Positions 795-34,495 of a stretch of 64,000 nt of DNA are shown here, one piece after another. Under the pieces are notes generated by a model. That model ran no database searches. It was given only the letters and a program-made list of their open reading frames with translations, and was not told where the DNA came from. A program made the translations under genes and the position numbers. Source of the DNA: Prochlorococcus sp. AG-409-J16. Lineage in GTDB: Bacteria; Cyanobacteriota; Cyanobacteriia; PCC-6307; Cyanobiaceae. Within the stretch, counting starts at the first letter, position 1. The number at the start of each line of letters is the position of its first letter. The stretch covers positions 1 to 64,000 of the forward strand of contig QCKB01000003.1 in the NCBI GenBank assembly GCA_003215655.1, read 5' to 3'.

Positions 795-1083
795 CTATAA
801 AGAATACTGAGAAAGGGAAGCTAACGAAAATATTGAGAATAAAGCCTATAAGCCTCTATATGTTCCCCATAGAAAGTATGCCGTTGAATCTTCTTAAACA
901 AGGCCCTCCTTTGCTCTAAGGTAAGGTCTTGGGAGTAAGTCTTACTAAGAGAAGCCTGAGGACTCATCTCTATTTCTGAAGCTTAACTCTTATTATTATT
1001 AGATGAATCAAAGGAAATGACATGCAATTTTTATATTCATTTTAGATTATTTTTTTAAAGCGGGATTCTTTGAGTAATTACCC

Positions 1084-1662
1084 CTATTTGCACATAGTTT
1101 TGTCTAAATTGAAAGCATAGTCAGGAGCAATAACAAGTTTCTCTGATTCTTCTATGTGAAAATTACCTTCCTTTATAAGACTATTAATAGGATCTATTAG
1201 CAAGCAAAACATTTGATCTTCCTTTTTTGAGCCATTAAAGAAGCCAAATACAAATATGATAGGCGATTCACCTACAACCTTGCCTCGAGGGTTAATCAGA
1301 AACTTTTGATTCAGTGATAGAAAATTATCTCTAGGGGGAGCAGGTTGAATAAGGCGGATATTTCCTACCGAATCATTTTCGGATATGCAATTCACCTTAA
1401 AAGGAAGTGAGTGGCCATGGTTAATCTCCTCAGATAATAGTATTTCACAAGATGCGCTCCAGCGTCTTGCTTCGCCTCTAACCAAACCAATAAACTCCTT
1501 CACCTCATTTAAATAAGAGGTAGTTTGCTGTCGTCTTAACCATTTAATGGCATAAGGGGATGTTATTGTAGTTAAAATGCTAAAAATGAATATAACTATT
1601 AATAGCTCTATTAAAGAAAAGCCTGAGTTTTTAGACGGTATTTCTCGTGAGTAAGTTTGCAT
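1084..1662 (-). CDS. Minor pilin, GspH/FimT-like
   Basis: A 192-aa protein with a type III signal peptide. The 14-residue leader ends in G14, then FSLIELLIVIFIFSIL with Glu at +5. I chose the ATG at 1662 rather than the longer frame from 1686 because it follows an AGGA ribosome-binding site inside the end of the preceding gene and gives a normal leader. It is the third gene of a minus-strand operon of pilin-like proteins. The short length and position suggest a GspH/FimT-type initiator or tip-complex subunit (inference). The C-terminal part has no motif I recognise. Confidence 0.8.
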   Translation of the reverse strand: MQTYSREIPSKNSGFSLIELLIVIFIFSILTTITSPYAIKWLRRQQTTSYLNEVKEFIGLVRGEARRWSASCEILLSEEINHGHSLPFKVNCISENDSVGNIRLIQPAPPRDNFLSLNQKFLINPRGKVVGESPIIFVFGFFNGSKKEDQMFCLLIDPINSLIKEGNFHIEESEKLVIAPDYAFNLDKTMCK

Positions 1663-1664
1663 AT

Positions 1665-2222
1665 TTAACTTCCTGGAGGGCACCAACTATGAACTTCACT
1701 ATTAATATGAAAATTCATCCATTCAATTTGCTTCCCATCATATTCGACTATATAATTAATTCTACTTAGACTGTTATCAACATTGGAAGATTGAATTCCT
1801 AAAGGTCTTCCAGAATAAACACTTCTAACGATTTTAATATTATCTTTTATTATTTTATTGCGAGAGGATCTAGGACTCCACTCTTTAGTAGACAAAATAT
1901 TTTTGATATCTCTACAAATTCCAGATGTAACTGCAGATTTAGTATCATAGCTTGAAGGCTTGGATAAATCTCCTGGTATATAGCTATTTCTCCACATAAT
2001 AGATCGTATATTTTCAATATCTCTTTGAATTTCATTGCTTATAGCATTAGTAATATATGCATTCCGAATAACCTTTTGTCTAAGAGAAGTGAAATATACA
2101 CTTAATAATACAATTATGACTAAAATTGATGAGCTTAGTACTAACTCAATAAGGCCAAAACCATTTATCAAGAAGAGATTTCTACCCTTTACAGGCCTAT
2201 ATAAATAAGATGATTTCTTCAT
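1665..2222 (-). CDS. Minor pilin, GspI/PilV-like
   Basis: A 185-aa protein with leader residues 1-21 ending in G21, then FGLIELVLSSSILVIIV, with Glu at +5 of the mature form. The start is set at ATG 2222-2220 because it overlaps the stop of the preceding gene as ATGA, typical of translational coupling; a longer frame from 2252 would run deep into that gene. It is the second gene of the minor-pilin operon, and its stop lies just before the next start. A GspI/PilV-type role in the pilus tip complex is inferred from order and motif. Confidence 0.8.
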   Translation of the reverse strand: MKKSSYLYRPVKGRNLFLINGFGLIELVLSSSILVIIVLLSVYFTSLRQKVIRNAYITNAISNEIQRDIENIRSIMWRNSYIPGDLSKPSSYDTKSAVTSGICRDIKNILSTKEWSPRSSRNKIIKDNIKIVRSVYSGRPLGIQSSNVDNSLSRINYIVEYDGKQIEWMNFHINSEVHSWCPPGS

Positions 2223-4531: not shown

Positions 4532-4730
4532 CTTCGATGGTTATAATTGATAAATTTATGGCCATAGATGGTTAGCCCTACAATGAATATAGCCAAAAAT
4601 AGTGATTTTGATAACTCAGGCTATTATTTCGTAAAAGAAATATTAAAGGTTAGGAAAGATTTAACGATCTACTAATAAAAACGTGAGAAAGCTTGATTCA
4701 ATTATCCAATTAGAGAAGTAGGGAAATATT

Positions 4731-4761
4731 TTGATGCAAACAAAATTAAAGGTTCTATACT
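4731..4761 (+). promoter_or_regulatory. Possible promoter of pilD
   Basis: The 254-bp gap 4532-4785 separates two divergent pilus transcription units. A TATACT at 4756-4761 resembles a -10 box about 25 bp before the pilD start, and TTGATG at 4731-4736 could be a -35 box with a long 19-bp spacer. In AT-rich DNA such matches arise by chance, so this is tentative. Confidence 0.3.
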
Positions 4762-4785
4762 AGTAAATATTTCTTTGAGAGTGTT

Positions 4786-5592
4786 TTGCTTCTATTCCTA
4801 CCTATATTTCTACTGGTAGGAGTTTCTTTAGGAAGCTTCCTTAGCCTGATCACAATAAGAATACCTAAGGGTGAATCAATAGTTTCTCCCAGAAGTAAAT
4901 GCGATAACTGCGAGCATCCTTTAAGCTGGACGGAGAATATACCTTTACTAAGTTGGTTTTTGTTGAAAGGAGTATGCAAACACTGTAAACAGCCAATATC
5001 AATTAGGAACCCATTAATAGAAATAACATCTGTTATACTTTTTGGAATTTCAACAATTGCCAATCCTAGCTGCATTGATGGATCCTCAAATCTATTGATA
5101 AGTCTATCCGGATGTATATTCTTTTCAATTTTACTAGTGCTTACTATTTTCGACATTGAATATCTTTTACTTCCAAAAACTCTATGCTACTTAGGTATAA
5201 TAGTCGGCTTAATAACAATCAGTTTTATAAAATTATCAATCACTGGTCAGTATTATATAAACTCTGTTATCCAAGACAATTTCTTTGCTGCTTTAATTGG
5301 TTTCATTTTATTCAGAGCTTTTTATCTTATTACAAAACTAATACTTGGGAAGCCAGCTATAGGAGTTGGTGATGGCAACCTTATTGCAATGTTAGGTGCA
5401 TGGCTTGGGCTTAATGGCTTAGGTCTATCCGTAATGATTTCCATACTTCTAGGTGGAATTTATTGTACTTTTGGATTAATACGAAGGACAATAAATCGAG
5501 GAGATGTTATAGCTTATGGTCCTTTTTTGTCCTTAGGTGGTGTATTAGTATGGACTTTCGGTAATGAGTTTATCATAAATATGTTAATCTAA
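4786..5592 (+). CDS. pilD: Prepilin peptidase / N-methyltransferase
   Basis: Inner-membrane aspartic protease of 268 aa that cleaves prepilin leaders and methylates the new N-terminus. The N-terminal GSFLSLITIRIP segment matches the family. Two CxxC pairs (C39/C42 and C64/C67) form the zinc-binding cytoplasmic loop. The catalytic aspartates are probably D123 in FDIEYLLLP and D196 in the GVGD motif. About seven or eight hydrophobic helices follow. The start appears to be TTG at 4786, since upstream in-frame codons offer no ATG or GTG and the conserved N-terminus begins here. It would process all the pilins in this window. Confidence 0.93.
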   Translation: MLLFLPIFLLVGVSLGSFLSLITIRIPKGESIVSPRSKCDNCEHPLSWTENIPLLSWFLLKGVCKHCKQPISIRNPLIEITSVILFGISTIANPSCIDGSSNLLISLSGCIFFSILLVLTIFDIEYLLLPKTLCYLGIIVGLITISFIKLSITGQYYINSVIQDNFFAALIGFILFRAFYLITKLILGKPAIGVGDGNLIAMLGAWLGLNGLGLSVMISILLGGIYCTFGLIRRTINRGDVIAYGPFLSLGGVLVWTFGNEFIINMLI

Positions 5593-5613
5593 GAGATAAT
5601 TTGATCAGAAAAC

Positions 5614-6966
5614 TTACCCAGTTGTGCTCATCATATTAAACATTGGTAAATACATAGCAACTAAAATGATGGCTATAATAGAAGCCACAAAAACTATCAT
5701 TAGAGGTTCAAGAATAGATGTTAATGTTTTCACCGTTGTAGATACATCGTCCTCGTAAAAATCTGCTAATTTATTTACCATTTCAGTCAGCTCTCCTGTC
5801 TCTTCACCAATCCTAAACATCGAGGTAAACATTATGGGAATTATTCTTTCTTCTTCTAAGGTTTTATATATTTGTTGACCAGATTGGATCCCTCTATACA
5901 TTTTGTCTACAACGCGAATAAAAAGCCTATTGGAAATTGTCTTCTTAGCAATTAATAATGATTCTAAAATGGGCACACCTGCAGCATTTAGTGAAGATAA
6001 TGTTCTAGAGAAGTTAGCAAGAGATGTCTTTGTGACTAATTGCCTAGTTATTGGCATGGCAAGGAGAAATCTATCCAACATAAAAAGAAAATATTCTGAT
6101 CTTAAAACCCGCCTTAATACAAAATACACAACTGTAAGTATTGGAATAAGTCTAATTAGGAATCCAGTGTCTCGAATTGAATTTGAACTATTAACAAGTA
6201 ACTGAGTCAAGAAGGGAAGCTCTGCTCCACTTGTTGCATAAATATCAATAAAGATAGGGATAACAAAAGTCAACATTATTATGATTACAACTATTGTCAG
6301 TATAAATATAGCTATTGGATATGACATAGCACTTTTAATTTCAGCTTTGATCTTTGAAAGGTTCTCAAGCAATTTGGCTTGCCTTAGTAAAACATTAGGA
6401 AGCAATCCCGCAGACTCTCCAGCAGACACTAATGCAATATACATATCATTAAATACCTGTGGAAATTTTTGCATACATTCAACTAATGTAGCTCCTCTAG
6501 TAATTCCAACAGCTATATCTTTAAAAACTAATTGTAATGTTTGATTCTGATTGCTCTCTGCAATTATATTCAGTGCTTCCAATAATGGAAGCCCAGTTCT
6601 TATCATGGAAGCCAATTGCTTTGTAGCTATAGCCAATTCATTGGTAGTAGGCGAATTTATACGAATATATTTTTTTCGAGAACGGCTTTTGCCTAGATCT
6701 CCAATACTATATATATATGAATTACTTTTTCTCGTGTTCTTTGTAGAACGAATATTAGTTAAAACGGATGAAATCTTTGCTCTATGTTTTTTCTTTTGAT
6801 CATTTGTATATAGAGACTTAATCTTTGGCCCAGATTCTTTTTTCTTGTCTATAGTAATTTGGTTAGCCTTCAGTGTATTTTCCTTTTCTATAGTATTTAT
6901 TCTCTCTTCTTGAGCTTTGAGCAACCTATCCTTAATATCACTGTCTAGAACAAATTTATAATCCAT
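5614..6966 (-). CDS. pilC: Type IV pilus inner-membrane platform protein
   Basis: PilC/GspF family, 450 aa. Residues 1-100 are a polar, Lys-rich extension. Two T2SSF domains follow (about 105-230 and 310-440) with hydrophobic segments near 220, 270 and 420. Recognisable stretches include LASMIRTGLPLLEAL and FRIGEETGELTEM. PilC couples the PilB and PilT ATPases to the growing pilus. It lies 12 bp after pilT on the same strand, completing a pilB-pilT-pilC operon, and converges with pilD. The Lys-rich N-terminal extension is longer than in many homologues. Confidence 0.93.
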   Translation of the reverse strand: MDYKFVLDSDIKDRLLKAQEERINTIEKENTLKANQITIDKKKESGPKIKSLYTNDQKKKHRAKISSVLTNIRSTKNTRKSNSYIYSIGDLGKSRSRKKYIRINSPTTNELAIATKQLASMIRTGLPLLEALNIIAESNQNQTLQLVFKDIAVGITRGATLVECMQKFPQVFNDMYIALVSAGESAGLLPNVLLRQAKLLENLSKIKAEIKSAMSYPIAIFILTIVVIIIMLTFVIPIFIDIYATSGAELPFLTQLLVNSSNSIRDTGFLIRLIPILTVVYFVLRRVLRSEYFLFMLDRFLLAMPITRQLVTKTSLANFSRTLSSLNAAGVPILESLLIAKKTISNRLFIRVVDKMYRGIQSGQQIYKTLEEERIIPIMFTSMFRIGEETGELTEMVNKLADFYEDDVSTTVKTLTSILEPLMIVFVASIIAIILVAMYLPMFNMMSTTG

Positions 6967-6978
6967 TAATTAAATAAG

Positions 6979-8058
6979 TTATGGTTGATTTTCTTCCGCT
7001 TCTATTAGCGAATTCAAAACCTTTGGTCGATTACATTTAAATAATGCTTCTTCCATCGTAATATCACCTTTGTTAAACATATCACTCAATGCCTGTTCTA
7101 ATGTTTGCATTCCAAATTTTGCCCCTACTTGAAGCTGAGAATATAGTTGTTGAGAGTTAGATTCTCTAATTAAATTCGCAATGGCTGTATTATTTACCAT
7201 TATTTCAGCTGCTAGAGCTCTACTATTATCTATTTTTCTGCAAAGTGTTTGAGATATTACACCTATCATTGATGCTGAAAGTTGAACTCTTATTTGTTGC
7301 TGTTGAGAAGTTGGGAAAACATCTATAATTCTATCAATAGTTTGTGAAGCAGATGCAGTATGTAATGTTCCCATGACTAAATGTCCTGTTTCTGCTGCTG
7401 TTATAGCGAGGCTAATCGTTTCTAAATCTCTCATTTCACCTACAAGAATAATATCTGGATCCTCTCTTAAAGCTGAGCGAAGTGCATTGCTAAATGATTT
7501 AGTATCTTCACCAACTTCTCGTTGTCTCACAAGACAATTTTTATTCAAAAAACTGTACTCAATAGGATCCTCAATTGTAATAATATGCTTAGCTTCGTTT
7601 GTATTTATCCAGTCAATTATGCTTGCCAGTGTAGTTGTTTTTCCTGAGCCGGTAGGTCCAGTTACAAGAATAAGCCCTCGAGGTCTTATTAATAGTTGTT
7701 GAACGTTCTCAGGTAATCCAATTTCCTCAAAGGTAGGGATATTTGTTGTTAATGCTCTCATTACACATGAGAGACTTCCTCTATCTAAGAATAAATTAAT
7801 CCTAAATCTCGCTAAATCTTCAAGACCAAGACTGCAATCTAAATCTTTTTCTTTATCGAACTTCGCTATCTTTTCTGTTCCTATTAATGCAATCAGTTCT
7901 TCTCGAAGAATCTCTGGGCTCAAAACTTCGCTAGAAGCTGGCAGTATTTGTCCTTGGATTCTGAAAAATGGATTTGATCCAGCTGTAAGGTGAAGGTCTG
8001 AACCGCCTCTCCTAACAAGTTCTTCCATTAAGACTTTTACATGGTTCATAGTAGTCAT
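6979..8058 (-). CDS. pilT: Type IV pilus retraction ATPase
   Basis: Hexameric secretion ATPase of 359 aa that depolymerises pili. The Walker A motif GPTGSGKTT is near residue 135 and the Walker B region DPDIILVGEMRD near 200. Family Asp, His and Arg boxes such as MGTLHTASA are present. The C-terminal AIANLIRE corresponds to the AIRNLIRE retraction signature that separates PilT from PilB. The start ATG overlaps the pilB stop by 4 bp, indicating coupled translation. Retraction implies a possible role in twitching or DNA uptake (inference). Confidence 0.95.
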   Translation of the reverse strand: MTTMNHVKVLMEELVRRGGSDLHLTAGSNPFFRIQGQILPASSEVLSPEILREELIALIGTEKIAKFDKEKDLDCSLGLEDLARFRINLFLDRGSLSCVMRALTTNIPTFEEIGLPENVQQLLIRPRGLILVTGPTGSGKTTTLASIIDWINTNEAKHIITIEDPIEYSFLNKNCLVRQREVGEDTKSFSNALRSALREDPDIILVGEMRDLETISLAITAAETGHLVMGTLHTASASQTIDRIIDVFPTSQQQQIRVQLSASMIGVISQTLCRKIDNSRALAAEIMVNNTAIANLIRESNSQQLYSQLQVGAKFGMQTLEQALSDMFNKGDITMEEALFKCNRPKVLNSLIEAEENQP

Positions 8059-9893
8059 TCCGATTCAAGCAAACAAACTCTTTCTACCTCTTCAATAGTA
8101 GTGAGTTCTTCTCGAACTAAATCCATACCATATTCTAATAAGCTTTTTACCCCAACTTCATATGCTTTATTTCTAAGAACATCTGCAGTTGACCCAGACA
8201 TAATTAATTCTCTTAAATTATCATTTATCTTCATGATCTCGTAAATACCTAAACGACCTTTATATCCACTTCCCCCACAATTCTTACATGCATTTTCATC
8301 GGTTGATTGTTTTCCTCCTCCAACTAAGACTCTTGGACTCCTAGCGTATGATATTCCAAAACTCATAGCTAATTTGTCCTTTGCTTCATCAAGATTTCTT
8401 CTAGTACTACATTTCGGGCACACTCTTCTAACCAAGCGTTGAGCAATAACCCCTATTACAGAAGCGCCTATAAGATACGATGGTATGCCCATCTCTGAAA
8501 GTCTCGTAATTGCAGTTGCCGTATCATTTGCATGCAATGTTGTAAAGACCATATGCCCTGTCAATGCAGCTTCCATAGCGGTCTGTGCTGTTTCTTTATC
8601 CCTTGTTTCTCCTACTAAAATTATATCTGGATCTTGTCTCATTAATGATCTCAATGCCTTTGCAAAATCCAAACCTTTCTCTCTTATTACCTGTACCTGA
8701 TGAATTCCCTTAAGAGTATATTCAACAGGGTCTTCAACTGTGCTTATATTTACTTCATCTGTATTCAACTCATTTAATATTGAATATAATGTAGTTGATT
8801 TTCCGCTTCCAGTAGGTCCGACTACAATTACAATTCCATATGGAGAATGGCCCATTCCTCTAACTATCTTGAGTGCATTTTTTGAATTTATAAGCTTATT
8901 TAGATCAAGCACAGATGTGTCTGACTCCAGGGCCCTTAATACAACCTTCTCACCCCATTTGCCTGGTAATGTACTTATTCTAAAATCACGTATCTTACCG
9001 TCTAAAAGGCATCTAATACGACCATCTTGAGGCAATCTTTTCTCAGCAATATCTAGCCTTCCCATAATCTTTAGCCTACTTATAACTGGATTCGATAAAG
9101 ACTTATTAAGTGAATAGAATTCCTTTAAAATTCCATCAACTCTAAACCTTATTCTCAATTTTTCCTCTAGAGGTTCAGCATGTATATCTGATGCTTTTAA
9201 TACAAAGCATTTATTTAATATAGATGCAACACCAGCAATCAAGGGATCATTTGAATTACAAAGATCTTCTTCATCAATTAAATTTTTATCTTCTTCAATT
9301 GTAGAATCATCATCAATTTGATCAAGATAGGAAACTTTATCATCATCGTCATTTCGTAAATAAGAAGAACTCTCTTCTAAGGATGATTGATCTTCCAAAT
9401 CTTGGAATTCTTTCATTGCTTCAATTTGATCTTCTAATTCACCTTCAGGTCTTTTTAATTCTGTGTCAGTTATAATATCACCATCCAATTCATTATTTCC
9501 TGAAGAATATTTTCCAAGTTTATTATCATGCTGCTCATGTTCTTTAATTATTGTTTTCGAAAACAAGTTTCCTTTAGATTGTTTTTTACTTTCTCCCAAT
9601 ATATTGTTCGTTTTGTTTTTTTTAATATCAGTATTACCATCTTCAAACCACTTTTCCCAATCAGAGGTCGAGATCTGCTTAACCTCTACAGGAATACCAA
9701 ATGTGGCAGAGATTTTTTTCTCAATTAACTTTACTTTTTTATAGCTTGGGTTCATCGCCCCTAAGCAAATTTTCTTATCATTAACCATTATTGGAATTAA
9801 ACCAACCTCTCCGCAGATTTCTGTAGTTAAAATCTCATAAACTTTATTTCCAATATCGATAATATTTTTATTGAATCCTGCTGAAGACTCCAT
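8055..9893 (-). CDS. pilB: Type IV pilus assembly ATPase
   Basis: Extension ATPase, 612 aa. The N-terminal MshEN-like region (about 1-85) is followed by an unusual Asp/Glu/Ser-rich linker (about 115-215). The GspE/PilB core then starts near residue 225. Walker A is GPTGSGKSTT near 360, Walker B is DPDIILVGETRD, and the His box is FTTLHANDTA. The zinc-binding CPKC and CKNC pairs distinguish PilB from PilT. It is the first gene of pilB-pilT-pilC. The neighbouring plus-strand operon starts divergently, so the short region after 9893 probably holds both promoters. Confidence 0.95.
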   Translation of the reverse strand: MESSAGFNKNIIDIGNKVYEILTTEICGEVGLIPIMVNDKKICLGAMNPSYKKVKLIEKKISATFGIPVEVKQISTSDWEKWFEDGNTDIKKNKTNNILGESKKQSKGNLFSKTIIKEHEQHDNKLGKYSSGNNELDGDIITDTELKRPEGELEDQIEAMKEFQDLEDQSSLEESSSYLRNDDDDKVSYLDQIDDDSTIEEDKNLIDEEDLCNSNDPLIAGVASILNKCFVLKASDIHAEPLEEKLRIRFRVDGILKEFYSLNKSLSNPVISRLKIMGRLDIAEKRLPQDGRIRCLLDGKIRDFRISTLPGKWGEKVVLRALESDTSVLDLNKLINSKNALKIVRGMGHSPYGIVIVVGPTGSGKSTTLYSILNELNTDEVNISTVEDPVEYTLKGIHQVQVIREKGLDFAKALRSLMRQDPDIILVGETRDKETAQTAMEAALTGHMVFTTLHANDTATAITRLSEMGIPSYLIGASVIGVIAQRLVRRVCPKCSTRRNLDEAKDKLAMSFGISYARSPRVLVGGGKQSTDENACKNCGGSGYKGRLGIYEIMKINDNLRELIMSGSTADVLRNKAYEVGVKSLLEYGMDLVREELTTIEEVERVCLLESE

Positions 9894-10016
9894 TTCCTTA
9901 GAGGCTAAATTGCCAGTTTTTTGGAAGGATTTATATACAAGCTAGTCCAACTAGCCATTCCCGTCAATTTGATTAAAAATCTCGACAACAATATTTCGAA
10001 GAGTTTTGGTACTAGA

Positions 10017-10940
10017 GTGAATAAACTCTTGGACAAGCCTTTGAATATCTCAAGAACTTATTTCCTTCATATTTTTTGCTCTACGGCATTTTTCTTTAGT
10101 ACATCTACAGTAGATGGATTTCAAAATCAAGGATTGGAGGCCATAGGCAACTCAAAACCTAGTCCACAATCCCAACAGCTAGAAGTTCAACCAGGTCCTG
10201 TTAAAGAGTTCGCCAATCCGTCTCCTTCCCTCCAGGCATCAGAGTTGGCTCAACCAATCCAGGCACAATTACAACAGCTAGAAGTTCAACCAGGTCCTGT
10301 TAAAGAGTTCGCCAATCCGTCTCCTTCCCTCCAGGCATCAGAGTTGGCTCAACCAATCCAGGCACAATTACAACAGCTAGAAGTTCAACCAGGTCCTGTT
10401 AAAGAGTTCGCCAATCCGTCTCCTTCCCTCCAGGCATCAGAGTTGGCTCAACCAATCCAGGCACAATTACAACAGCTAGAAGTTCAACCAGGTCCTGTTA
10501 AAGAGTTCGCCAATCCGTCTCCTTCCCTCCAGGCATCAGAGTTGGCTCAACCAATCCAGGCACAATTACAACAGCTAGAAGTTCAACCAGGTCCTGTTAA
10601 AGAGTTCGCCAATCCGTCTCCATTTGTACTAAGGCCAATGCCAATAGGTAATCAATTAATTGCTCTTCGTTCTGTTTCTCCTCAGAGAAATCCATTCACT
10701 TCGATAGACTTCAATGAGATAACTGGACAAAGAAATTTGCCCGATTCAATTAGCCTTACAGGGATTTTAAAAGTTGGCGACTCTGTAGTGGCAATGATTA
10801 AGACAGCGACTGGGGAGGAAATATTTGAGATTGGGCAACAAATAGGTAATGGCTATAAAATAGAGAGCATTGTTCATGGCAATAGACAAATCACCCTTTC
10901 AAATGGAAATAACCAATATATTCTGGGAATGAATCAATAG
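10017..10940 (+). CDS. PilP-like pilus alignment protein with 33-residue tandem repeats
   Basis: A hydrophobic segment near the N-terminus (TYFLHIFCSTAFFFSTS) acts as a signal or anchor. The middle holds four and a half copies of a 33-aa Pro/Gln/Glu repeat, and a C-terminal domain with GILKVGDSVVAMI and GNGYKIESI resembles the beta-rich PilP/GspC fold. Position before pilM-pilN-pilO-pilQ supports a PilP role linking PilN/PilO to the secretin. I chose GTG at 10017. A TTG at 9921 is in frame but would leave only 27 bp to the divergent pilB. The repeats would be a periplasmic spacer; the PilP assignment is inference. Confidence 0.65.
   Translation: MNKLLDKPLNISRTYFLHIFCSTAFFFSTSTVDGFQNQGLEAIGNSKPSPQSQQLEVQPGPVKEFANPSPSLQASELAQPIQAQLQQLEVQPGPVKEFANPSPSLQASELAQPIQAQLQQLEVQPGPVKEFANPSPSLQASELAQPIQAQLQQLEVQPGPVKEFANPSPSLQASELAQPIQAQLQQLEVQPGPVKEFANPSPFVLRPMPIGNQLIALRSVSPQRNPFTSIDFNEITGQRNLPDSISLTGILKVGDSVVAMIKTATGEEIFEIGQQIGNGYKIESIVHGNRQITLSNGNNQYILGMNQ
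10173..10621 (+). repeat. 99-bp coding tandem repeat, about 4.5 copies
   Basis: Direct repeats with a period of exactly 99 bp (33 codons). Anchors such as AGAAGTTCAACC begin at 10181, 10280, 10379, 10478 and 10577. By eye the units are identical at the nucleotide level, including third codon positions, which points to recent expansion or ongoing homogenisation. The encoded unit begins QQLEVQPGPVKEFANPSPS. The copy number is likely to vary by slippage or recombination without breaking the frame. Confidence 0.95.
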
Positions 10941-17927: not shown

Positions 17928-18485
17928 TTAGCAGTCCTGTTCAGGAACTTCTCTTCCTTTCTGCTTCAACAAAACTACTTTGGTATTTCCTGTGGCATGG
18001 TTAAAGCAACCTGTTACTCCATACCCATAATCAGAATATTCACCAGCTGGAAGAGCTGTCATATATGTAATGCCTGTTTTTTGTCCTAGCGCAATATTAA
18101 ATATTCCACTAGGACTATTCCAATATCTAGTTCCTGTAGGCCCAGAAAGAGGTGCTGTTTTGCAAGCAACTGGATTTCTTTGGCCATTAGCAACATTTGA
18201 AGCACATCCCTTTACAGAGACAAATTCTGACAAGTCAGTATCAGTCAAAGGAGGAGTATTATATATAATAAAAAAGGCTTGAACAGCTTTTATATAAGAA
18301 GAAATAAGGACAGCCGCCTCTTGCTGCTTAGCTTTATCTCCAGCATTCATAAAGCTTGGAATTGCGATAGAAGAGAGAATTCCAATAATCATCACCACAA
18401 CTATTAATTCCACCAACGTGAATCCTTCGTCTTCTTTCCTAGAGAGCAGGTATTGAATCAGTCTTTGTTTCACTTTCACTGCCAT
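17928..18485 (-). CDS. Type IV pilin (PilA-like)
   Basis: A 185-aa pilin. The 21-residue leader MAVKVKQRLIQ... ends RKEDEG, then FTLVELIVVVMIIGIL with Glu at +5. It is a close paralogue of the pilin at 216-794: both share SSIAIPSFMNA, DKAKQQEAA, LTDTDLSEFVSV, RYWNSPSG and YGYGVTGCFNH. A terminal Cys probably closes the D-loop. It is followed after 45 bp by the VWA minor pilin. Its upstream leader is shared with the partial pilin at the left edge, pointing to duplication of gene plus control region. Confidence 0.92.
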   Translation of the reverse strand: MAVKVKQRLIQYLLSRKEDEGFTLVELIVVVMIIGILSSIAIPSFMNAGDKAKQQEAAVLISSYIKAVQAFFIIYNTPPLTDTDLSEFVSVKGCASNVANGQRNPVACKTAPLSGPTGTRYWNSPSGIFNIALGQKTGITYMTALPAGEYSDYGYGVTGCFNHATGNTKVVLLKQKGREVPEQDC

Positions 18486-19034
18486 TCTTTCTTCAGTTTG
18501 ATCACGCTGATCACTTTCAACAAGATTTCAAGGGGAAATGCGACATATTTTCGACCTACTGAATTAAGAAACCTTTCCAACACTGGGGGTTCATCACTGG
18601 ACAACGTGTGCAGTGGGAATTGAGCCTAAAGCTGGAAGACCAAACAGTTCTGAAAAGGCGTTCGATCGGTGTCTCCCATAACCGTCATTCCATCCATTTC
18701 AAGAGACAGAGGAATGATTACTGAAATTTTCTACCTATATGGAATCAAGAAAAAAGCCAATACCAGCTGAAACTTGAAAATGGCTCATTCAAATCAATCA
18801 CACTTTATTCAAAACCTTATTTCATCGTTACCTCCTAGTCATATCAATCGATTTAAGCGAAAGTTTGTTAATCCAGGCAAACTTTTTCACCCCCCGGATC
18901 TTCAATCTGGGGCGTTTTTTTTGGCCAACAAATTTCTCTAATTCTTTAGATAGCGCGCCCAGCTAAGCGCAATACATAAACCTATAGCAACGTTCAAATC
19001 ACCCTTGATTTCTTAAAAGCCAGCGCATAATTCC
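18486..19034 (+). repeat. Interspersed element, copy 1 (blocks A-B-C-D)
   Basis: Non-coding DNA that aligns in order with 20744-21305, 22530-22656 and 23720-24287. Shared landmarks are GTTCGATCG, TATATGGAATCAAG, the string TCATATCAATCGATTTA, the GGATCTTCAATCTGGGG hairpin and TTGATTTCTTAAAAGCC. Block A is also the leader of the pilin that starts at 18485. The remaining bases to the next gene (19035-19118) hold a small tandem AATCTAGT repeat and nothing else that I can identify. Confidence 0.75.
18890..18922 (+). terminator. Rho-independent terminator-like hairpin
   Basis: A C-rich arm (CCCCCGGAT), a short loop and a complementary ATCTGGGG arm are followed, two bases on, by eight T. It points rightwards, yet no plus-strand gene ends upstream of it: the nearest upstream gene is the minus-strand pilin. 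It could therefore end an unannotated RNA made from copy 1 of the repeat. The hairpin recurs in the other copies, but their T-runs are degraded. Confidence 0.6.
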
Positions 19035-19118
19035 GTAAGTCTTGTTGCGATGGCCATAGGAGGGCCAATAGATAATCTAGTAATCTAGTAATCTTGGGGC
19101 TATAGAGTAGGAACTGAG

Positions 19119-20612
19119 ATGGAGGATTGGAAAAAGTATCAAGAACTAGGGTTAGATTTATATAGAAAAGGTAAATTTGAAGAGTCTATTGATGCATATA
19201 AAAAGTCTCTTGAACTGAACGAGGATTTGGAATCTTATAAATTTATAGGAAATAGCTTAATGGTTCTAGGAAGGAACGAAGATGCCGTCGTGGAATATAA
19301 AAAATGCATAGAAATATCTGAAAATTGGTATTTCTACAAAGCTCTAGGGTGGGCCCTCCTCGGATCGAATAGGCTTAAAGAAGCAGAGAACGCATACAGG
19401 AAATCATTATGCCTCCATCAAGAGCATGAATCATATTTAGGGCTAGGACTTACATTGAATAATCTTTCTAGATATGAAGAAGCAATTAACGCATATAGGA
19501 TGTCATTAGGGCTCCAGGAGGGATGGAGAGCTTATCAAGAACTAGGACTTACATTGAATAGTCTATCTAGATATATTGAAGCGAGAGATATGTTTTCCAA
19601 ATCATTGTCTATTATTGAGTCAAATAAAGAGAAAGAAACTGTAAATACTTCTTTCGTCAAAGTTGGTTTATCAAAATCTCTTGAAGGAATGCAATTGTTC
19701 GAGGAAGCTCTTAAGGTGTTTTTTGATGCATCAGATCCTGACGAAAAAGAATGGGATTGTATCCATTCTATAGGCCGAAAACTTGTTAATAATTCAAATT
19801 ATGATCTAGCAATCCGATATTTTTCTCTGGCTACAAAAAGATACACGAATATATACGAAACAGAAGCAGCTTTGGTCTGGGCAATTATAAAGTCAGGTAG
19901 ATCATCTGAATATCAAAATTACATTTCTAATCTAGTAATTAGTGAAAAATGGGATTTGATTGATTTTTACCTTAATGGTATTAATCATGATATTGATCAT
20001 ATTTATGACAAGGAGAGTGCTCGATATATGATGTACAAACTAAATAAGGTTAAGTGCCTAAACAGTAGGGATGCTGTTCGTTATGCAGCAATAAATGAAA
20101 TAAGCCTAAAAGATGGACTAATTATGGAGTTTGGAGTTCATAAAGGAGATTCAATTAGGTTAATAGCAAATTCTTTAACTAATCAAGTAATACATGGATT
20201 TGATTCGTTTTATGGTCTTCCAGAAGATTATGTGTCATTTTACAGAAAAGGCGCCTTTTCTACAGAAGGAAACCTACCCCTAGTTCCATCTAATGTTCAA
20301 TTACATCAAGGCTGGTTTAATAAAACTCTGCCATTATTTCTGAAAAATAATAAGGTTAAATATTCAAGTCTAATACACATTGATTGTGACTTATACTCAT
20401 CAACTAAAACCGTTTTATCACTACTTAATAATACAATTGTGCCTGGATCAATTATTATCTTTGATGAGTATTTTAATGGTGTTGGTTGGAAAGAAAATGA
20501 ATTCAAGGCATTCCAAGAATATGTAGAAGAATATGGAGTAACTTATGAATATATTTTTTATTCAAGAATAAGAGCATCTAATGTCGTTGTTCGCATCACT
20601 GATAAAAAATAA
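19119..20612 (+). CDS. TPR protein with C-terminal TylF-like methyltransferase domain
   Basis: A 497-aa fusion. Residues 1-160 contain about four or five 34-residue tetratricopeptide repeats (for example EEAINAYRMSLGL), with more helical repeat-like sequence to about 260. Residues about 330-495 resemble the TylF/macrocin O-methyltransferase family: IMEFGVHKGDSIR (SAM site), HGFDSFYGLPEDY, HIDCDLYSST and IIIFDEYFNG, where acidic residues would bind metal. Probable role is methylating a sugar or glycan, with the TPR part binding a partner (inference). It stands alone between two repeat copies and looks like an accessory gene. Confidence 0.82.
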   Translation: MEDWKKYQELGLDLYRKGKFEESIDAYKKSLELNEDLESYKFIGNSLMVLGRNEDAVVEYKKCIEISENWYFYKALGWALLGSNRLKEAENAYRKSLCLHQEHESYLGLGLTLNNLSRYEEAINAYRMSLGLQEGWRAYQELGLTLNSLSRYIEARDMFSKSLSIIESNKEKETVNTSFVKVGLSKSLEGMQLFEEALKVFFDASDPDEKEWDCIHSIGRKLVNNSNYDLAIRYFSLATKRYTNIYETEAALVWAIIKSGRSSEYQNYISNLVISEKWDLIDFYLNGINHDIDHIYDKESARYMMYKLNKVKCLNSRDAVRYAAINEISLKDGLIMEFGVHKGDSIRLIANSLTNQVIHGFDSFYGLPEDYVSFYRKGAFSTEGNLPLVPSNVQLHQGWFNKTLPLFLKNNKVKYSSLIHIDCDLYSSTKTVLSLLNNTIVPGSIIIFDEYFNGVGWKENEFKAFQEYVEEYGVTYEYIFYSRIRASNVVVRITDKK

Positions 20613-20638
20613 CCATCTTATAAAGTAATGATTAAAAC

Positions 20639-20743
20639 CGCATAATTCCCAACTGAATAATAATGCCCCTCTCAGTAAGTAGGGCATGGTTAAGTGAACA
20701 TGGTCATGTGAAAATTCACCTGACCTCAATAGGAGATATTAGC
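20639..20743 (+). other. Block E: conserved 105-bp element with two hairpins
   Basis: Aligned without gaps to 24283-24387 with about 12 differences in 105 positions. Hairpin 1 is ATGCCC...GGGCAT (20663-20687), with both arms conserved and the loop varied. Hairpin 2 is GTGAA-AA-TTCAC (20708-20719), which in the other copy reads GTAAA-AA-TTTAC, so a G-C pair has become A-T on both sides. It ends with AGGAGATATTAGC. It is possibly an RNA element or a protein-binding palindrome, function unknown. Confidence 0.6.
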
Positions 20744-21305
20744 GGTGTCTTTTACATAATTCTGATTACGCTCCTTCCTTTCAGCAAAATTTCAAGGGTT
20801 AAAACCACATAATTAATAACTGCTTAATCAAGAACCCTTACCACCACTCATTTCTCATGACGTGACTTGCTTTCACGTGAGAATTTGTCGGAAATCAATA
20901 AGACCCAATAGTGATGGGAAGGCTTTAGAGAGTCCCCAATCGGGACTCTCTCCCATTCAACGCAACGCCAAAGAAGTAGTCTCGCTGAAATTTGCTGCCC
21001 AAATGAAATCAAGCAACAACCCAGTCCCTATAAGAGTTTTACTCAACTTCCAAAATGGCAGTAACAAGTTAGACAACCTTTTGACAACCCCTGTTTTCAC
21101 CGTTGGGATCTAGTCATACCAATCGATTTACCTACCTGTAGAGACTTACTCACGTAAGGTATAGACGCCCAGTCATACCTAGGGTTCTCAGAGAAAGTTT
21201 GAATTCTGGCTCAAACTTTATTCAAACTTCTTCACCCCCGGATCATTAATATGGGTGGTGGTGGTGCTCTTATTTAGCCCTTAAATTTCACTAATTCACT
21301 AGATC
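20639..21305 (+). repeat. Interspersed element, copy 2 (blocks E-A-B-C)
   Basis: Aligns with copy 4 over long stretches: GGGAAGGCTTT, CAACGCCAAAGA, ATGAAATCAAGCAACAACC, CAACTTC, AATGGCAG, AAGTTAGACAA and CATACCAATCGATTTA. Block E (20639-20743) comes first. The C-block hairpin is altered here (CGGATCATTAATATGGG). The remainder up to the gene at 21411 is AT-rich without recognisable content. An 83-codon frame from 20862 lies wholly inside the repeat and is not treated as a gene. Confidence 0.75.
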
Positions 21306-21410
21306 CTAAAATCTTCAATTTTGTAATCGTTAAGATGCCAAATGATGCCTCGAATTTAGACTAACAATCAAACTTTTTTTTTATAATGGAAATATCAGAA
21401 AAAATTCAGA

Positions 21411-22481
21411 ATGAATAAGTCTCCAAGCACAGTTGAAATTATAAATTTCATATATAAGCTAACAGAATCGCATGGATCTAGATACGCATATAACCGGTTA
21501 AGATCTTATATCTCCCAAATGGACAAGAACTCTATACCTGATGTTCTCATAGCCGCTAGCAATACATTATTTTGGGCTACCAAAAACCAAGAGCGGAGCG
21601 AACAGCTACTTTTCAGGCAAATGTTAGCCAAAGGGATTTCTCTTCCTACTGAAACTCTCTTTGCAAATGGTTTTCCTAAAAGAGAGTTCATTGTGTACGG
21701 TAACAATACAGAAGGTCGTCAAGGCGACCAACTTAGCAAGTTATCATATATGCTAAATGCACAAAGTGCATTGAATATCGTACTTTGTATTAGATCTGAA
21801 TTATCTAAAAATAAATCAATTTTAATATCGAATAAAAATAATTTTGAAACTGATTTACCATCAATTGATCAGATCTCTATTTATCCTTATCTAAAAGCTA
21901 TAGCCCTACAAAACTCTTTTAAAAGAAGTTTACTTCAAGGCTGCAATAGAAATTTATTTAATAAATTACCTTCTTTTAAAGAATACAACGGCCTTCTTAA
22001 GGATAATTCATTGGTAATCCATATTAGAGGTGGAGATGCATTATTTGATGGTCAAATACCATTACCTCCAGCTAGCTATTACCAAAATATTATTGATAGT
22101 ACTGAAGTCAATAATGTTCTTATCGTAACTGAGCCCAAGCCGGTTACGCAACAAGAAAGAGTCAATCCACTTCCTGATATCATACAATCCCATTGCCACA
22201 AAATGAGCATTGAATCAAAAATAATTTCTAGTAAAGATCCTCTTTTTGATGCAGGCTTAATATTTAATGCAAATCGAATTGTTTGTTCAAATTCGACTTT
22301 TTCAATTTACCTTGCACTTTTTAGTAATAGTTGTAATACGATCTATATACCGAAACTATTTAAAGAAAGTAATTGGATTATAGACACGAGTATCAATTAT
22401 GTTGACTGTCATAAGAAATTTAATGCAATCAAATGGGAAAATAGTCTCCAATATAGAATGGACTGGGTCAGCTACAACTAA
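21411..22481 (+). CDS. Glycosyltransferase-like protein with HIRGGD motif
   Basis: A 356-aa protein whose segment LVIHIRGGD (about residues 201-209) resembles the HxRxGD nucleotide-sugar motif of GT11-type and related fucosyltransferases. It is followed by PPASYYQNII, VLIVTEP and a late IVCSNSTFSIYLALFS segment, which match the C-terminal donor-binding lobe of that fold. The N-terminal 120 residues are not recognised. It probably transfers fucose or a related sugar to a surface glycan. It stands alone between repeat copies 2 and 3, with a GDP-sugar cluster nearby. Confidence 0.65.
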   Translation: MNKSPSTVEIINFIYKLTESHGSRYAYNRLRSYISQMDKNSIPDVLIAASNTLFWATKNQERSEQLLFRQMLAKGISLPTETLFANGFPKREFIVYGNNTEGRQGDQLSKLSYMLNAQSALNIVLCIRSELSKNKSILISNKNNFETDLPSIDQISIYPYLKAIALQNSFKRSLLQGCNRNLFNKLPSFKEYNGLLKDNSLVIHIRGGDALFDGQIPLPPASYYQNIIDSTEVNNVLIVTEPKPVTQQERVNPLPDIIQSHCHKMSIESKIISSKDPLFDAGLIFNANRIVCSNSTFSIYLALFSNSCNTIYIPKLFKESNWIIDTSINYVDCHKKFNAIKWENSLQYRMDWVSYN

Positions 22482-22529
22482 TTTACTGGCTACCAGTCTT
22501 AAGACATTTATTTCACAGGAGATTTTCCG

Positions 22530-22656
22530 TTCGCCTCCTCGGATCTTCAATCTGGGGGGTATTTGGCTACTAAATTTAACTAATTCATTAGATAGCAAGC
22601 CAAGCGCCATACATAGACCTATGCCAACGTTCCAAATCAACGCTTGATTTCTTAAA
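22530..22656 (+). repeat. Interspersed element, copy 3 (partial, blocks C-D)
   Basis: Contains CGGATCTTCAATCTGGGG and a D-block whose last 39 bases (22618-22656) are identical to 24238-24276 in copy 4. Blocks A, B and E are missing. The break at the left occurs just after the stop of the glycosyltransferase gene. The 72 bp to the end of folE hold nothing I recognise. Confidence 0.8.
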
Positions 22657-22728
22657 CCAAGTAATTTATGTGTAAAATCAACAATTAACTAAAAATCTAT
22701 TTCAACGGCAATAGAGAAAAAGAAGCCT

Positions 22729-23475
22729 TTAATAATTCTTCCCAACGGTAGATTGTTGTCTAACTAGTTCAAAAAATTCCTGCTTGAGATTAGGGTCATG
22801 GCGGAAATCTCCTCTAACCACTGAGTTAATCATACTAGTATCTGGTTCTTTAACTCCTCGCCATTTCATACAATAATGTTGTGCCTTGATAATAATTCCT
22901 AAACCTTTAGGATTACATAAATTCTCAATTTCATCAGCAAGTATCATTACAGCTTCTTCCTGAATATGAGGCCTAGAAAATACCCAATCGGCAACTCTTG
23001 CAAATTTCGAAAGACCTATTACTTTTTCTCCTGGCTTAATGCCTATCCAACAGTCTCCAAGAATCGGAACCAAGTGATGTGAGCAGGCGGATCGTACAGT
23101 TATTGGTCCAACCGTATAAATCTCGTCTAGGTTTTTATCATTTGGAAAACTAGTAACCTTTGGCTGTTTGTGATACCTACCTTTAAATACTTCATTTATA
23201 TACATCCTAGAGACTCTTTCTGCAGTTTCTTGAGTGTTATGATCATTATCTACATCAATTAAAAGGGTCTTGAGTAAATCTCTTACCCTTGTTGCAACCT
23301 CTTTTTCAAGAGTTTCTAATTCACCTGGAAGAATGTAATCTGAAATATTATCATTAGCATGAAATCTAGCATTGTCAGCTTGAATTCGCGCACGAATTAT
23401 TTCAGAAACCAACCTGCATGTAAACGTATCTTCATTATCCTCATTAATATTTTTAACTGAGTTTGTACTAGTCAT
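22729..23475 (-). CDS. folE: GTP cyclohydrolase I
   Basis: Converts GTP to 7,8-dihydroneopterin triphosphate, the first step of folate and pterin synthesis. The 248-aa protein has the zinc ligands in SACSHH (near residue 129) and QHYCMKWRG (near 200), plus GPITVRSACSHH, GLSKFARV and RPHIQEE signatures. The N-terminal 45 residues are a family-variable extension. It is the only minus-strand gene among the repeat-separated genes and lies between copies 3 and 4. Whether this is the sole folE or a second, acquired copy cannot be told from this window. Confidence 0.95.
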   Translation of the reverse strand: MTSTNSVKNINEDNEDTFTCRLVSEIIRARIQADNARFHANDNISDYILPGELETLEKEVATRVRDLLKTLLIDVDNDHNTQETAERVSRMYINEVFKGRYHKQPKVTSFPNDKNLDEIYTVGPITVRSACSHHLVPILGDCWIGIKPGEKVIGLSKFARVADWVFSRPHIQEEAVMILADEIENLCNPKGLGIIIKAQHYCMKWRGVKEPDTSMINSVVRGDFRHDPNLKQEFFELVRQQSTVGKNY

Positions 23476-23719
23476 AATTAGCTTTTTAGATCAATAAGAA
23501 GCAACCGCTATTTAAGCAATCAAATTTTCAAGGATACCACTATAGCACATTGAAAAGAAACAGTTGCAGCTAGAACCAGTTAGAGATTAGTGCCTATTTG
23601 ACATTCACATAGAGCTTATTAGACAAAGGCTGGAGTTTAATGTCTTTCAAATGGAGACGGTTTGCCATCCCTATTAAATAGGCAAATCTGATCACACCCA
23701 TCCTTTTTAGAAAGTTGCT

Positions 23720-24387
23720 GGAGTTAAAGTCACATACTCTGTAGTTGTCGAACAGAAAATCCTTTTCGATACTGGGATTTTACAACAGACTTGCGGTGTG
23801 TCGAGAATTTGAGTGACCATTTTTGACCAATAACCCTTGGGAAGGCTTTCGATCGTCCACCATAGGAACTCTATTCAATACACATCAACGCCAAAGACGA
23901 ATGATCGACTGATTTGCTGCGTATATGAAATCAAGCAACAACCGAGTTCATAAAGGCGTTTTGCCCAACTTCAGAAATGGCAGTTTCAAGTTAGACAAAC
24001 TTTCTCAAATCCTGTTCCCACCTTTGAGGCTTAGTGATACCAACTGATTTCGACGACGTTTAGCACTACTCTCGCAAGGGATAAAAACCCAGTTATACCG
24101 ATGCTTTTAGCTTTCTTGTCAAACTTTGGTAGAACTCTTCCCCTTCGGATCTTCAATCTGGGGGTGGGTGAATTTATTTGGCCCTCAAATTTCTCTACTT
24201 AATTAGATAACAAGCCAAGCCAAGAGCAATACATAGCCCTATGCCAACGTTCCAAATCAACGCTTGATTTCTTAAAAGCCAGCGCATAATTCTAAACTTA
24301 ATAATAATGCCCATCTCAGCCAGTAGGGCATGGTTAAGCGAACATTGTCAAGTAAAAATTTACCTGACATCAATAGGAGATATTAGC
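23720..24387 (+). repeat. Interspersed element, copy 4 (blocks A-B-C-D-E)
   Basis: The most complete copy, with all five blocks in order between folE and the sugar cluster. Landmarks are CGATACTGGG, GAAGGCTTTCGATCG, GAAATCAAGCAACAACC, GTGATACCAACTGATTT, GGATCTTCAATCTGGGGG, AATTAGATAACAAGCC, TTGATTTCTTAAAAGCC and block E at the right. Bases 23476-23719 upstream and 24388-24462 downstream show no gene. Part of 23476-23719 should contain the folE promoter. Confidence 0.78.
24283..24387 (+). other. Block E, second copy
   Basis: Same 105-bp length as 20639-20743. ATGCCC/GGGCAT arms are at 24307-24312 and 24326-24331, and the GTAAA-AA-TTTAC hairpin is at 24352-24363. It lies 75 bp beyond the 3' end of the sugar cluster's last gene, on the opposite strand to that gene. 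I find no third copy in the window. Confidence 0.6.
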
Positions 24388-30650: not shown

Positions 30651-31376
30651 TTGGTAAAGTCAAAATTTAAATTTCATCCCGCGATTATAATCAAATATCT
30701 TGCGGCTATCACTTTGATTTTAACAACTATAAATATTATTATTCAATTCGCAATCTACAGCTTCGGCCTTAAAGAAGAATGGTTCTTATTATTCAATATG
30801 GATAAAGAGGTAAATATACCAACACTATACAACTGCTCACTCTTTCTAATTTGCGTAGCACTAATCTCATTAATCATAAGGAAGTTAAAAGAGCAAAATG
30901 ACAATCTAACTAATAAGTGGAATACATTAAAGTGGCTATTTATATTCCTAACGCTTGATGAAGCACTTCAAATCCATGAGATCTTTATCATCCCAAGCAT
31001 AAAGCCATTCTTACCAGCAATACTTAATGCTGTATGGGTAATTCCTTATGGAATTTTTGTTATAATATCAATTATGTATTTCATGGGGCTATTATTTAGT
31101 CTACCTAAAAAAGTTCAATATTTAACATTTATCTCTGGTTTCATATACCTAGCAGGAGCATTAGGCCTAGAAATAATAGGAAGCTTTTTAGTGCGTACAA
31201 GTGCCATAAAGCTGCATGGCATATCTTATGGCCTTATTTCCACTCTAGAAGAAGCATTTGAGATGACAGGGCTAATAGTATTTATATACGCTCTTTTGAT
31301 ATTTGCTTTTGCTTACCAAAATCAAAAGTTAAAAATAAATCTTCATCTTAGCTCTAAAGAAAGTGCAAATTATTAA
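30651..31376 (+). CDS. Multi-pass membrane protein, function unknown
   Basis: A 241-aa protein with about six hydrophobic segments (near residues 12-32, 58-77, 93-103, 123-146, 153-176 and 205-225). The polar N-terminus carries Lys residues and the C-terminus is short and basic. The start appears to be TTG at 30651; no ATG is available before the first helix. I recognise no family. The motif LDEALQIHEIF between helices and STLEEAFEMTG before the last helix contain paired acidic and His residues that might bind metal. Confidence 0.65.
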   Translation: MVKSKFKFHPAIIIKYLAAITLILTTINIIIQFAIYSFGLKEEWFLLFNMDKEVNIPTLYNCSLFLICVALISLIIRKLKEQNDNLTNKWNTLKWLFIFLTLDEALQIHEIFIIPSIKPFLPAILNAVWVIPYGIFVIISIMYFMGLLFSLPKKVQYLTFISGFIYLAGALGLEIIGSFLVRTSAIKLHGISYGLISTLEEAFEMTGLIVFIYALLIFAFAYQNQKLKINLHLSSKESANY

Positions 31377-33325: not shown

Positions 33326-34495
33326 GTGGAATCAAAAAAAACTACAAAAAGGAGCCTCTTAGGGGTAAATACTCGAGTCATCCATCACGGGGAGAGCTTT
33401 GCGGCCAATACAGGGACAATAATGCCGCCAATATTTCCAAGCTCAACCTTTGCACATGGCAATCTAGAAGGTTTTGATTACACCCGTTCAGGAAACCCAA
33501 ATTTCAGAATACTGGAATCTGTTTTATCGTCTTTAGAGGAGTGCAAGTGCACAACCGTCTTTGCCTCTGGAGTAAGTGCCATTACAGCTGTAGCCTCATC
33601 ACTTAAAGCTGGAGACACTGTCTTATGTGAAGAAAATCTATATGGCTGCACTGTGAGACTTTTTGAAAAAGTTTTCCAGAAATTTGGGGTCAAAACATCT
33701 TGGGTGGATTTCACAAAGTTATCTGCCCTTGAGGCAATAGATCAAATTAAACCTTCAATGATTTGGTTAGAGAGCCCAACCAATCCTCTGCTTAAGATTC
33801 TCGATTTGAAGAAGATCTGCGAAGTTGCCAATAAGTATCAAATCCCCGTTGTTGTTGATAACACCTTCTGTACAGCAATTTTACAAAAACCACTCGAACT
33901 CGGAGCCACTATTTCTCTAACAAGTACCACCAAATACATCAATGGACATTCTGATGCATTAGGCGGAGCTATTTGTACAAATGATCCTCAATGGCACAGC
34001 AAAATGGTTTTTGCCCAAAAAGCTCTTGGCCTGAATCCCTCACCTTTTGATTGTTGGCTTATCACCAGAGGGATAAAAACTCTTCCTATTCGCCTAGAGA
34101 AGCAGGTCGCAAATGCTTTAGCACTAGCAGATCAACTTTCCAAACATCCAGCAGTGAATTGGGTGAGATATCCATTTCGCTCAGATCATCCTCAACATCA
34201 AATAGCCCTTAAGCAAATGAAAGCTGGTGGAGCAATGATCACTACAAGTATCAAAGCCAATCGAAATGAAACCTACTCTTTTTGCAAAAATCTAAAGTAT
34301 TTCACTATGGCCGAAAGCCTTGGTGGTATAGAGAGCCTTGTATGCCATCCGGCAACGATGACCCATGCTTCGGTAGAAAAATCTATAAAAGATCGTCTAG
34401 GCATAAATGATTCGTTATTACGATTTTCAATAGGCTGTGAAGACCTTTCTGACCTAAACGAAGATCTTGATACCGGACTTAATCAATTGCAGTGA
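33326..34495 (+). CDS. metB: Cys/Met metabolism PLP enzyme (cystathionine gamma-synthase or beta-lyase)
   Basis: A 389-aa fold-type I PLP enzyme. RNTRVIHHGE-like start (GVNTRVIHHGE), YTRSGNPNFRILES, FASGVSAITAV, and the PLP-lysine motif SLTSTTKYINGHSDALGG near residue 198 fit MetB/MetC. LESPTNPLLKILDL and VVDNTF are typical. Whether it forms or cleaves cystathionine cannot be decided. The GTG start at 33326 follows an AGGA box. It overlaps the next PLP gene by 4 bp (GTGA), so they are co-translated. Confidence 0.85.
   Translation: MESKKTTKRSLLGVNTRVIHHGESFAANTGTIMPPIFPSSTFAHGNLEGFDYTRSGNPNFRILESVLSSLEECKCTTVFASGVSAITAVASSLKAGDTVLCEENLYGCTVRLFEKVFQKFGVKTSWVDFTKLSALEAIDQIKPSMIWLESPTNPLLKILDLKKICEVANKYQIPVVVDNTFCTAILQKPLELGATISLTSTTKYINGHSDALGGAICTNDPQWHSKMVFAQKALGLNPSPFDCWLITRGIKTLPIRLEKQVANALALADQLSKHPAVNWVRYPFRSDHPQHQIALKQMKAGGAMITTSIKANRNETYSFCKNLKYFTMAESLGGIESLVCHPATMTHASVEKSIKDRLGINDSLLRFSIGCEDLSDLNEDLDTGLNQLQ

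Follow-up and report, generated by a model that had tools for sequence, protein, structure and literature searches.

Why do copies of one mostly non-coding repeat alternate with single, unrelated genes in a 64,000-nt window of Prochlorococcus sp. AG-409-J16 (contig QCKB01000003.1, positions 1 to 64,000)? The original prediction, made from this window alone, likened the arrangement to a cassette array. We find that the repeat, here called element E, also lies at the 3′ end of rpsD, the gene for ribosomal protein S4, in this genome and in related ones. We consider it probable that E marks tandem arrays of recombinase-less integrative cassettes, which would be inserted site-specifically at the rpsD 3′ end and mobilized in trans.

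Alignment of the E copies with rpsD 3′ ends revealed that each complete E contains a duplicate of the last eight rpsD codons, GAGTACTACTCACGTAAGGTATAA (EYYSRKV-stop), hereafter referred to as the attachment (att) core. On a profile of 574 model positions built from element copies, E consists of a right end (RE, positions 1-306), the att core, and a left end (LE, approximately 360-574). The copy next to rpsD starts at model position ~307-316, inside the rpsD coding end, and so comprises the second half only; internal copies can span positions 1-574. Allowing up to five mismatches across 403 kb of array loci, all matches to the att core (43/43) lie inside E and in rpsD orientation, compared to none in shuffled sequence. 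Since it holds this duplicate of the rpsD 3′ end, E is a predicted attachment site.

Other features of E surround the core. A direct motif, AGTCATACCAA..GATTTCAGC, is present on both sides of it, and the sequence after the core has repeats, both inverted and direct, of the type GTCAAACTTT or GTCTAACTTT; CAGTCATACCAA is a putative arm sequence of the RE-att-LE site. The LE contains a terminator-like hairpin and an antisense 30-codon open reading frame (ORF; MRWLLRNQALIWNVGIGLCIALGLARYLMN), which is intact in about half of the E copies. Substitutions among 24 homologues of the ORF fall mostly at third codon positions (2415 vs 1095 and 297), although the homologues were picked by protein similarity, a choice that favors such a bias. 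The 30-aa product is a predicted small membrane peptide that may have a cassette-stabilizing function.

Within the window, an nhmmer search with the profile returned four E copies at 18.5-24.3 kb, all on the plus strand, bearing out the predicted number and single orientation of the repeats; a single-copy query recovered the other three with E-values of 8e-47, 2e-35, and 4e-20. The copies are unequal in completeness, again as predicted. Copy 1 (18537-19031; model 3-574; 371 bits) has lost the att core, its alignment lacking the att region. It begins 51 bp from the start codon of a neighboring minus-strand type IV pilin-like gene (17928-18485; Pfam N_methyl), whose upstream region it doubles as. 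Copy 2 (20800-21304; model 2-492; 410 bits) retains the RE, the att core, and most of the LE, with the core GAGACTTACTCACGTAAGGTATAG at 21141-21164 (+) differing from the last eight rpsD codons at 4 positions. Copy 3 (22534-22656; model 430-560; 121 bits) is only the distal third, i.e., part of the LE. Copy 4 (23725-24290; model 2-574; 483 bits) is full length, with an att core TAGCACTACTCTCGCAAGGGATAA at 24061-24084 (+; 5 mismatches) and the 30-codon ORF MRWLLRNQALIWNVGIGLCIALGLACYLIK at 24195-24287 on the minus strand. A fragment of a fifth copy (96-306, +; model 3-206; 75 bits) lies upstream of a pilin gene that is cut by the contig end. The prediction had begun copy 2 earlier, at 20639-21305; the E portion stands from 20800, and the first ~160 bp (20639-20799) are mostly not E. 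They belong mostly to D4, a ~105-bp repeat unrelated to E with copies at 20637-20743 (+) and 24283-24387 (+; 89% identical to the first), which among the loci compared occurs only in the window genome. The window copies of E are a partly decayed distal segment of an array, and because most of them are degraded, this segment may no longer be mobile.

To place this segment we counted E copies by sequence search, which gave matches in 27/300 and 39/400 sampled genomes of the family, many of them to a short part only; E recurs within the window genome, and other carriers include Prochlorococcus AG-409-L18, AG-409-G20, and AG-409-N21. In at least 12 genomes, the window's own included, the first E directly adjoins the rpsD 3′ end, and most of these have further copies downstream in the same direction, with a different gene after each. 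The island is bordered by rpsD and metB in the window genome and in G011, G030, G068, and G089, and its distal end is metB wherever the assembly extends that far. In the array-free relatives G003, G066, G120, and G017, the spacing of rpsD and metB is 107-262 bp (values of 262, 114, 117, and 107 bp). In the window genome itself the two borders are on separate contigs, rpsD on C10 and metB on C3, the contig of the window. Both contigs break in a pilin gene: C3 starts with the N-terminus, on the minus strand, and C10 starts with a C-terminal part that matches it. Because the two halves match in compatible orientation, the rpsD island most likely continues on C3, with the 18.5-24.3 kb segment as its distal part. 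By tblastn, the window also contains a membrane-protein gene found on the metB side of the island in other genomes (30651-31358, +) and the conserved distal border itself, a metB-like gene (33341-34492, +) that we take to encode a cystathionine gamma-synthase family protein.

The genes between E copies vary. Across 14 genomes, 43 inter-element gaps (median 1,056 bp) contain different genes, with one main ORF in 34 of them, and the cargo is of mixed orientation (21 with rpsD, 19 against). Among the cargo are pilins, RTX proteins, methyltransferases, sulfotransferase-like proteins, a fatty-acid desaturase, a radical SAM protein, a carbamoyltransferase, and folE; pilins are the commonest cargo in the rpsD-proximal part of the window genome's island. 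In the window, single unrelated genes had been predicted between the copies, and Pfam supports two of the three assignments: a 497-aa TPR + TylF/Methyltransf_24 methyltransferase (19119-20612, +) and folE, encoding a 248-aa GTP cyclohydrolase I (22729-23475, -; 149.6 bits). The third, a 356-aa protein (21411-22481, +) predicted as a glycosyltransferase with an HIRGGD motif, has no Pfam match.

Where a homologous cassette sits depends on the species. The window's folE cassette borders the last element, but its counterpart in G032 (locus L072) comes first after rpsD, and the two proteins are 98% identical by tblastn. The shared block (window 22537-23692, L072 3202-2023) is 90.9% identical over 1181 bp, with 90-100% in the coding part and 62-86% in the flanking elements. 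Different species also share a desaturase cassette (92.3% over 1359 bp) and a cassette with a 219-aa gene (86%), whose shared block begins at the att core, and a 65-aa gene cassette recurs in several genomes at 89-94%. By comparison, rpsD identity between the species is about 82-85%. In other shared blocks the similarity drops off inside the element, suggesting that the E elements themselves are mosaics. Together with the empty sites, the varied gaps and the homologous cassettes at different positions support the cassette-array idea, and related genomes displayed the opposite of a fixed gene order or a single-copy element.

We also observed a 1,201-bp tandem duplication in G030 (L068 10216-11416 and 12113-13313; 99% identical), which takes in one E along with the 3′ portion of an RTX-type gene and represents recent amplification inside the array.

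A motif that flanks the rpsD att, CAGTCATACCAANGGTTTTCAG, extends beyond these arrays. It has 62 matches in 49/400 genomes, compared to 0 for the reversed control, at sites after rpsD, ychF, tRNA-Ala(ggc), and tRNA-Arg(tct), and it is also found between tRNA genes and adjoining recombinase genes. In L199, L202, and L198, a tyrosine-recombinase-like protein of 429-462 aa lies within a motif-bounded tRNA-site element. These proteins align with the tyrosine recombinase pattern R..H-x-x-R..H..Y; the one tested against Pfam gave no match.

The ychF sites belong to a second type of array, located at the ychF 3′ end in eight genomes of another Prochlorococcus-like genus (L155, L156, L157, L161, L210, L211, L212, and L214) and independent of the rpsD arrays. 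In these arrays GGAGTTTTTATTCAACGT occurs as many as nine times, with the inverted motif CTGGTATGACTGGACG / CGTCCAGTCATACCA on its flanks, and all 31 att cores are on the ychF strand, with 0 on the other. The same three-gene cassette is present in six species, where it is first, second, third, or later in the array; its identity is 97-99.8% between most of the species and about 90% in one.

No recombinase is encoded between the window E copies, consistent with the predicted lack of an integrase or transposase. Likewise, recombinase homologues were not found in the tested rpsD and ychF array loci and lie elsewhere in the genomes. A 406-aa tyrosine recombinase (L238 3434-4654, L239 7884-9104, L240 7686-8906, and L241 618-1838) is 96-98% identical in four array-bearing species, at different chromosomal places. 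Its ~1.6 kb block adjoins a 48-bp tRNA-Pro fragment and is apparently a solitary mobile integrase; as this fragment is its att, we rejected it as the array enzyme and regard it as a separate element. A 326-aa recombinase of G068 was rejected as the island enzyme as well, being located ~23 kb past metB, outside the island. Proteins of ~215-232 aa (L040 8730-9377, L245 7883-8581, and L247 4203-4877) match only the N-terminal, arm-binding-like domain of the tRNA-element recombinases and are possibly truncated integrases or directionality factors.

We hypothesize that neighboring integrated cassettes are joined by E. A cassette, carrying one to three genes and perhaps in the form of a circular intermediate, would recombine site-specifically, using its own att and the one at the rpsD 3′ end. 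The 3′ codons of rpsD would be replaced by the incoming att, and the LE would bring a new terminator-like hairpin, so that rpsD would remain intact. Repeated insertion would generate rpsD-[att-LE-cargo-RE]n in one orientation, up to the old neighbor on the metB side. The enzyme would most likely be a tycheposon-type tyrosine recombinase acting in trans, because such elements at tRNA-Ala and tRNA-Arg have the same motif beside att. Afterwards, homologous recombination between E copies would amplify, delete, mix, and trim cassettes, and insertion itself may be ongoing.

Several observations weigh against site-specific capture. No recombinase acting on the rpsD att was identified. The window genome has a ~386-aa tyrosine recombinase, encoded beside cobO, that is conserved and also present in array-free genomes, the 406-aa enzyme tied to the tRNA-Pro fragment, and one small serine recombinase. 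Similarity is much higher in the folE cargo than in the flanking E elements, a pattern not expected from pure att-to-att transfer, and one has to suppose that E copies exchanged sequence afterwards. The att core is gone from 2/4 window copies. Only the first junction matches the expected half-element in all genomes; last junctions are heterogeneous, with one stopping at model position 352 as predicted and others truncated or running on. We saw neither circular cassettes nor excision products, nor a plus/minus pair from the same species.

Some of these points would fit an explanation in which E is merely a long dispersed homology block and genes are swapped by RecA-dependent recombination after DNA uptake, with no site-specific recombinase now active. 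The separate histories of the folE cargo and its flanking E elements, the G030 duplication that includes an E, the length (up to ~570 bp) and mosaic nature of the copies, and the lack of a recombinase in the arrays are all compatible with it. Homology alone leaves unexplained why E contains the exact rpsD 3′ end, why precisely the copy at rpsD is reduced to the second half, and why the motif recurs beside tRNA-site recombinase genes and in the independent ychF arrays, and we judge this explanation unlikely. Far less probable is that E is a pilin promoter and leader region and the array arose by tandem duplication of a pilin locus, with other genes later taking the place of some pilins. Pilin genes do start by the RE side of many E copies in the window genome and G013, but in most other genomes E separates genes such as those for RTX proteins, methyltransferases, sulfotransferase-like proteins, a desaturase, and a carbamoyltransferase, without pilins. 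What anchors E is rpsD and not a pilin gene, and these pilin-free arrays largely refute the idea.

We give slightly less weight still to a role of E as a structured non-coding RNA or a dispersed selfish repeat unrelated to gene exchange. E is long, conserved, and mostly non-coding, and the 30-aa ORF region, a short stretch of E, is also found alone elsewhere; yet E has no match in Rfam, the ORF has a codon-position bias, and neither the fixed orientation to rpsD nor the att duplicate would be accounted for. The dispersed single matches to the distal 90 bp of E proved to be 30-aa ORF homologues beside a 42-aa ORF, not cassettes. Searching for carriage by phages or satellites gave nothing for E in 50,697 phage records and, with exact patterns for E and the motif, which are a weak test, 0 matches in 2.9 million viral contigs.

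Site-specific cassette capture at rpsD has partial parallels in known systems. In additive flexible genomic islands, cassettes are separated by repeats of tRNA 3′ ends (PMC4119200, PMC10872708), as in Alteromonas fGI1 (PMC4119200) and in fGI-2 of ‘Ca. Methylopumilus’, where the repeats are the last 20 nt of tRNA-Lys (PMC10872708). Like these islands, E arrays keep to one chromosomal place, differ in how many cassettes have been added, and contain the target 3′ end as direct repeats; the same core genes form the borders in different species, the site is sometimes empty, and the presence or absence of cassettes varies. Unlike them, the arrays described here target protein genes (rpsD or ychF) and not tRNA genes, the cassettes mostly contain one gene, the junctions have conserved ends of ~300 bp and ~215 bp with a terminator-like hairpin and often the 30-aa ORF, and no integrase or transposase is associated with the tested rpsD and ychF array loci.

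Tycheposons are integrative elements at tRNA genes of Prochlorococcus with a tyrosine recombinase (PMC10872708, PMC11389934). The likeness lies in the same host family and in the occurrence of the motif CAGTCATACCAANGGTTTTCAG at tRNA-Ala and tRNA-Arg loci with recombinase genes. The rpsD and ychF arrays differ in having no tRNA target, recombinase, or replication genes, and in consisting of tandem, mostly single-gene cassettes rather than one large element.

The E array works like an integron array but, by the tests for integrons, is not one. The tandem, mostly single-gene cassettes, the recombination site at each junction, and the order varying between species are integron-like. In contrast to integrons, no IntI is next to the array, the att is a duplicate of a gene end and not attC, and the cargo points either way (21:19), whereas integron cassettes are mostly in one orientation. 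Inspection of the aligned sites showed that the att core GAGTACTACTCACGTAAGGTATAA is without RYYYAAC ... GTTRRRY boxes, in agreement with the earlier view that the repeats are not attC-like; GTTAGAC/GTCTAAC pairs in the LE are in the order opposite to attC boxes and form a short hairpin. Composite staphylococcal cassette chromosome (SCC) elements and tandem integrative mobilizable elements also integrate at the 3′ end of a housekeeping gene, which is restored by the incoming DNA, and accrete in tandem, but they carry their own recombinase and are much larger. E arrays would resemble them in the 3′-end integration with a restored gene and in tandem accretion, and differ in that the cassettes are small and recombinase-free.

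The novel features are the use of protein genes as targets, the cassettes that mostly carry a single gene and no recombinase, the standard element, and the existence of two parallel systems. In the literature searched, neither rpsD nor ychF was named as a site of this kind in Prochlorococcus, which is weak evidence. Prochlorococcus combines small, streamlined genomes with an enormous common gene pool, and how single genes enter and exit islands is an open question. The att-bounded, mostly single-gene cassettes at two housekeeping genes, in arrays that are empty, full, or reordered across species, offer a visible mechanism, and the exact att sequences and candidate enzymes make the recombination step directly testable. 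Many cargos resemble cell-surface genes (pilins, RTX proteins, and sulfotransferase- and methyltransferase-like proteins), a likeness that would link the system to escape from phages and grazers. Tentatively, and as somewhat less than an even chance, picocyanobacteria might run a modular gene-capture system, a functional counterpart of integrons, in which small, recombinase-free cassettes with standard ends, gathered in ordered arrays at the 3′ end of rpsD in some lineages and of ychF in others, are moved in trans by the recombinases of tRNA elements, and in which much of the stock consists of surface genes (pilins, RTX proteins, and glycan- and sulfate-modifying enzymes).

Outside the array segment, a 9.5-kb stretch of the type IV pilus operon (window 577-10117) is 96% identical to L039 of G013, and other genes common to the window and the G013 species are ~83% identical in DNA sequence, which suggests that the whole pilus operon was recently transferred between the two species. 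Within an ORF of this operon (9921-10940), 99-bp tandem repeats that are 99% identical (10165-10621) encode a repeated QLEVQPGPVKEFANPSPSLQASELAQPIQAQ segment.

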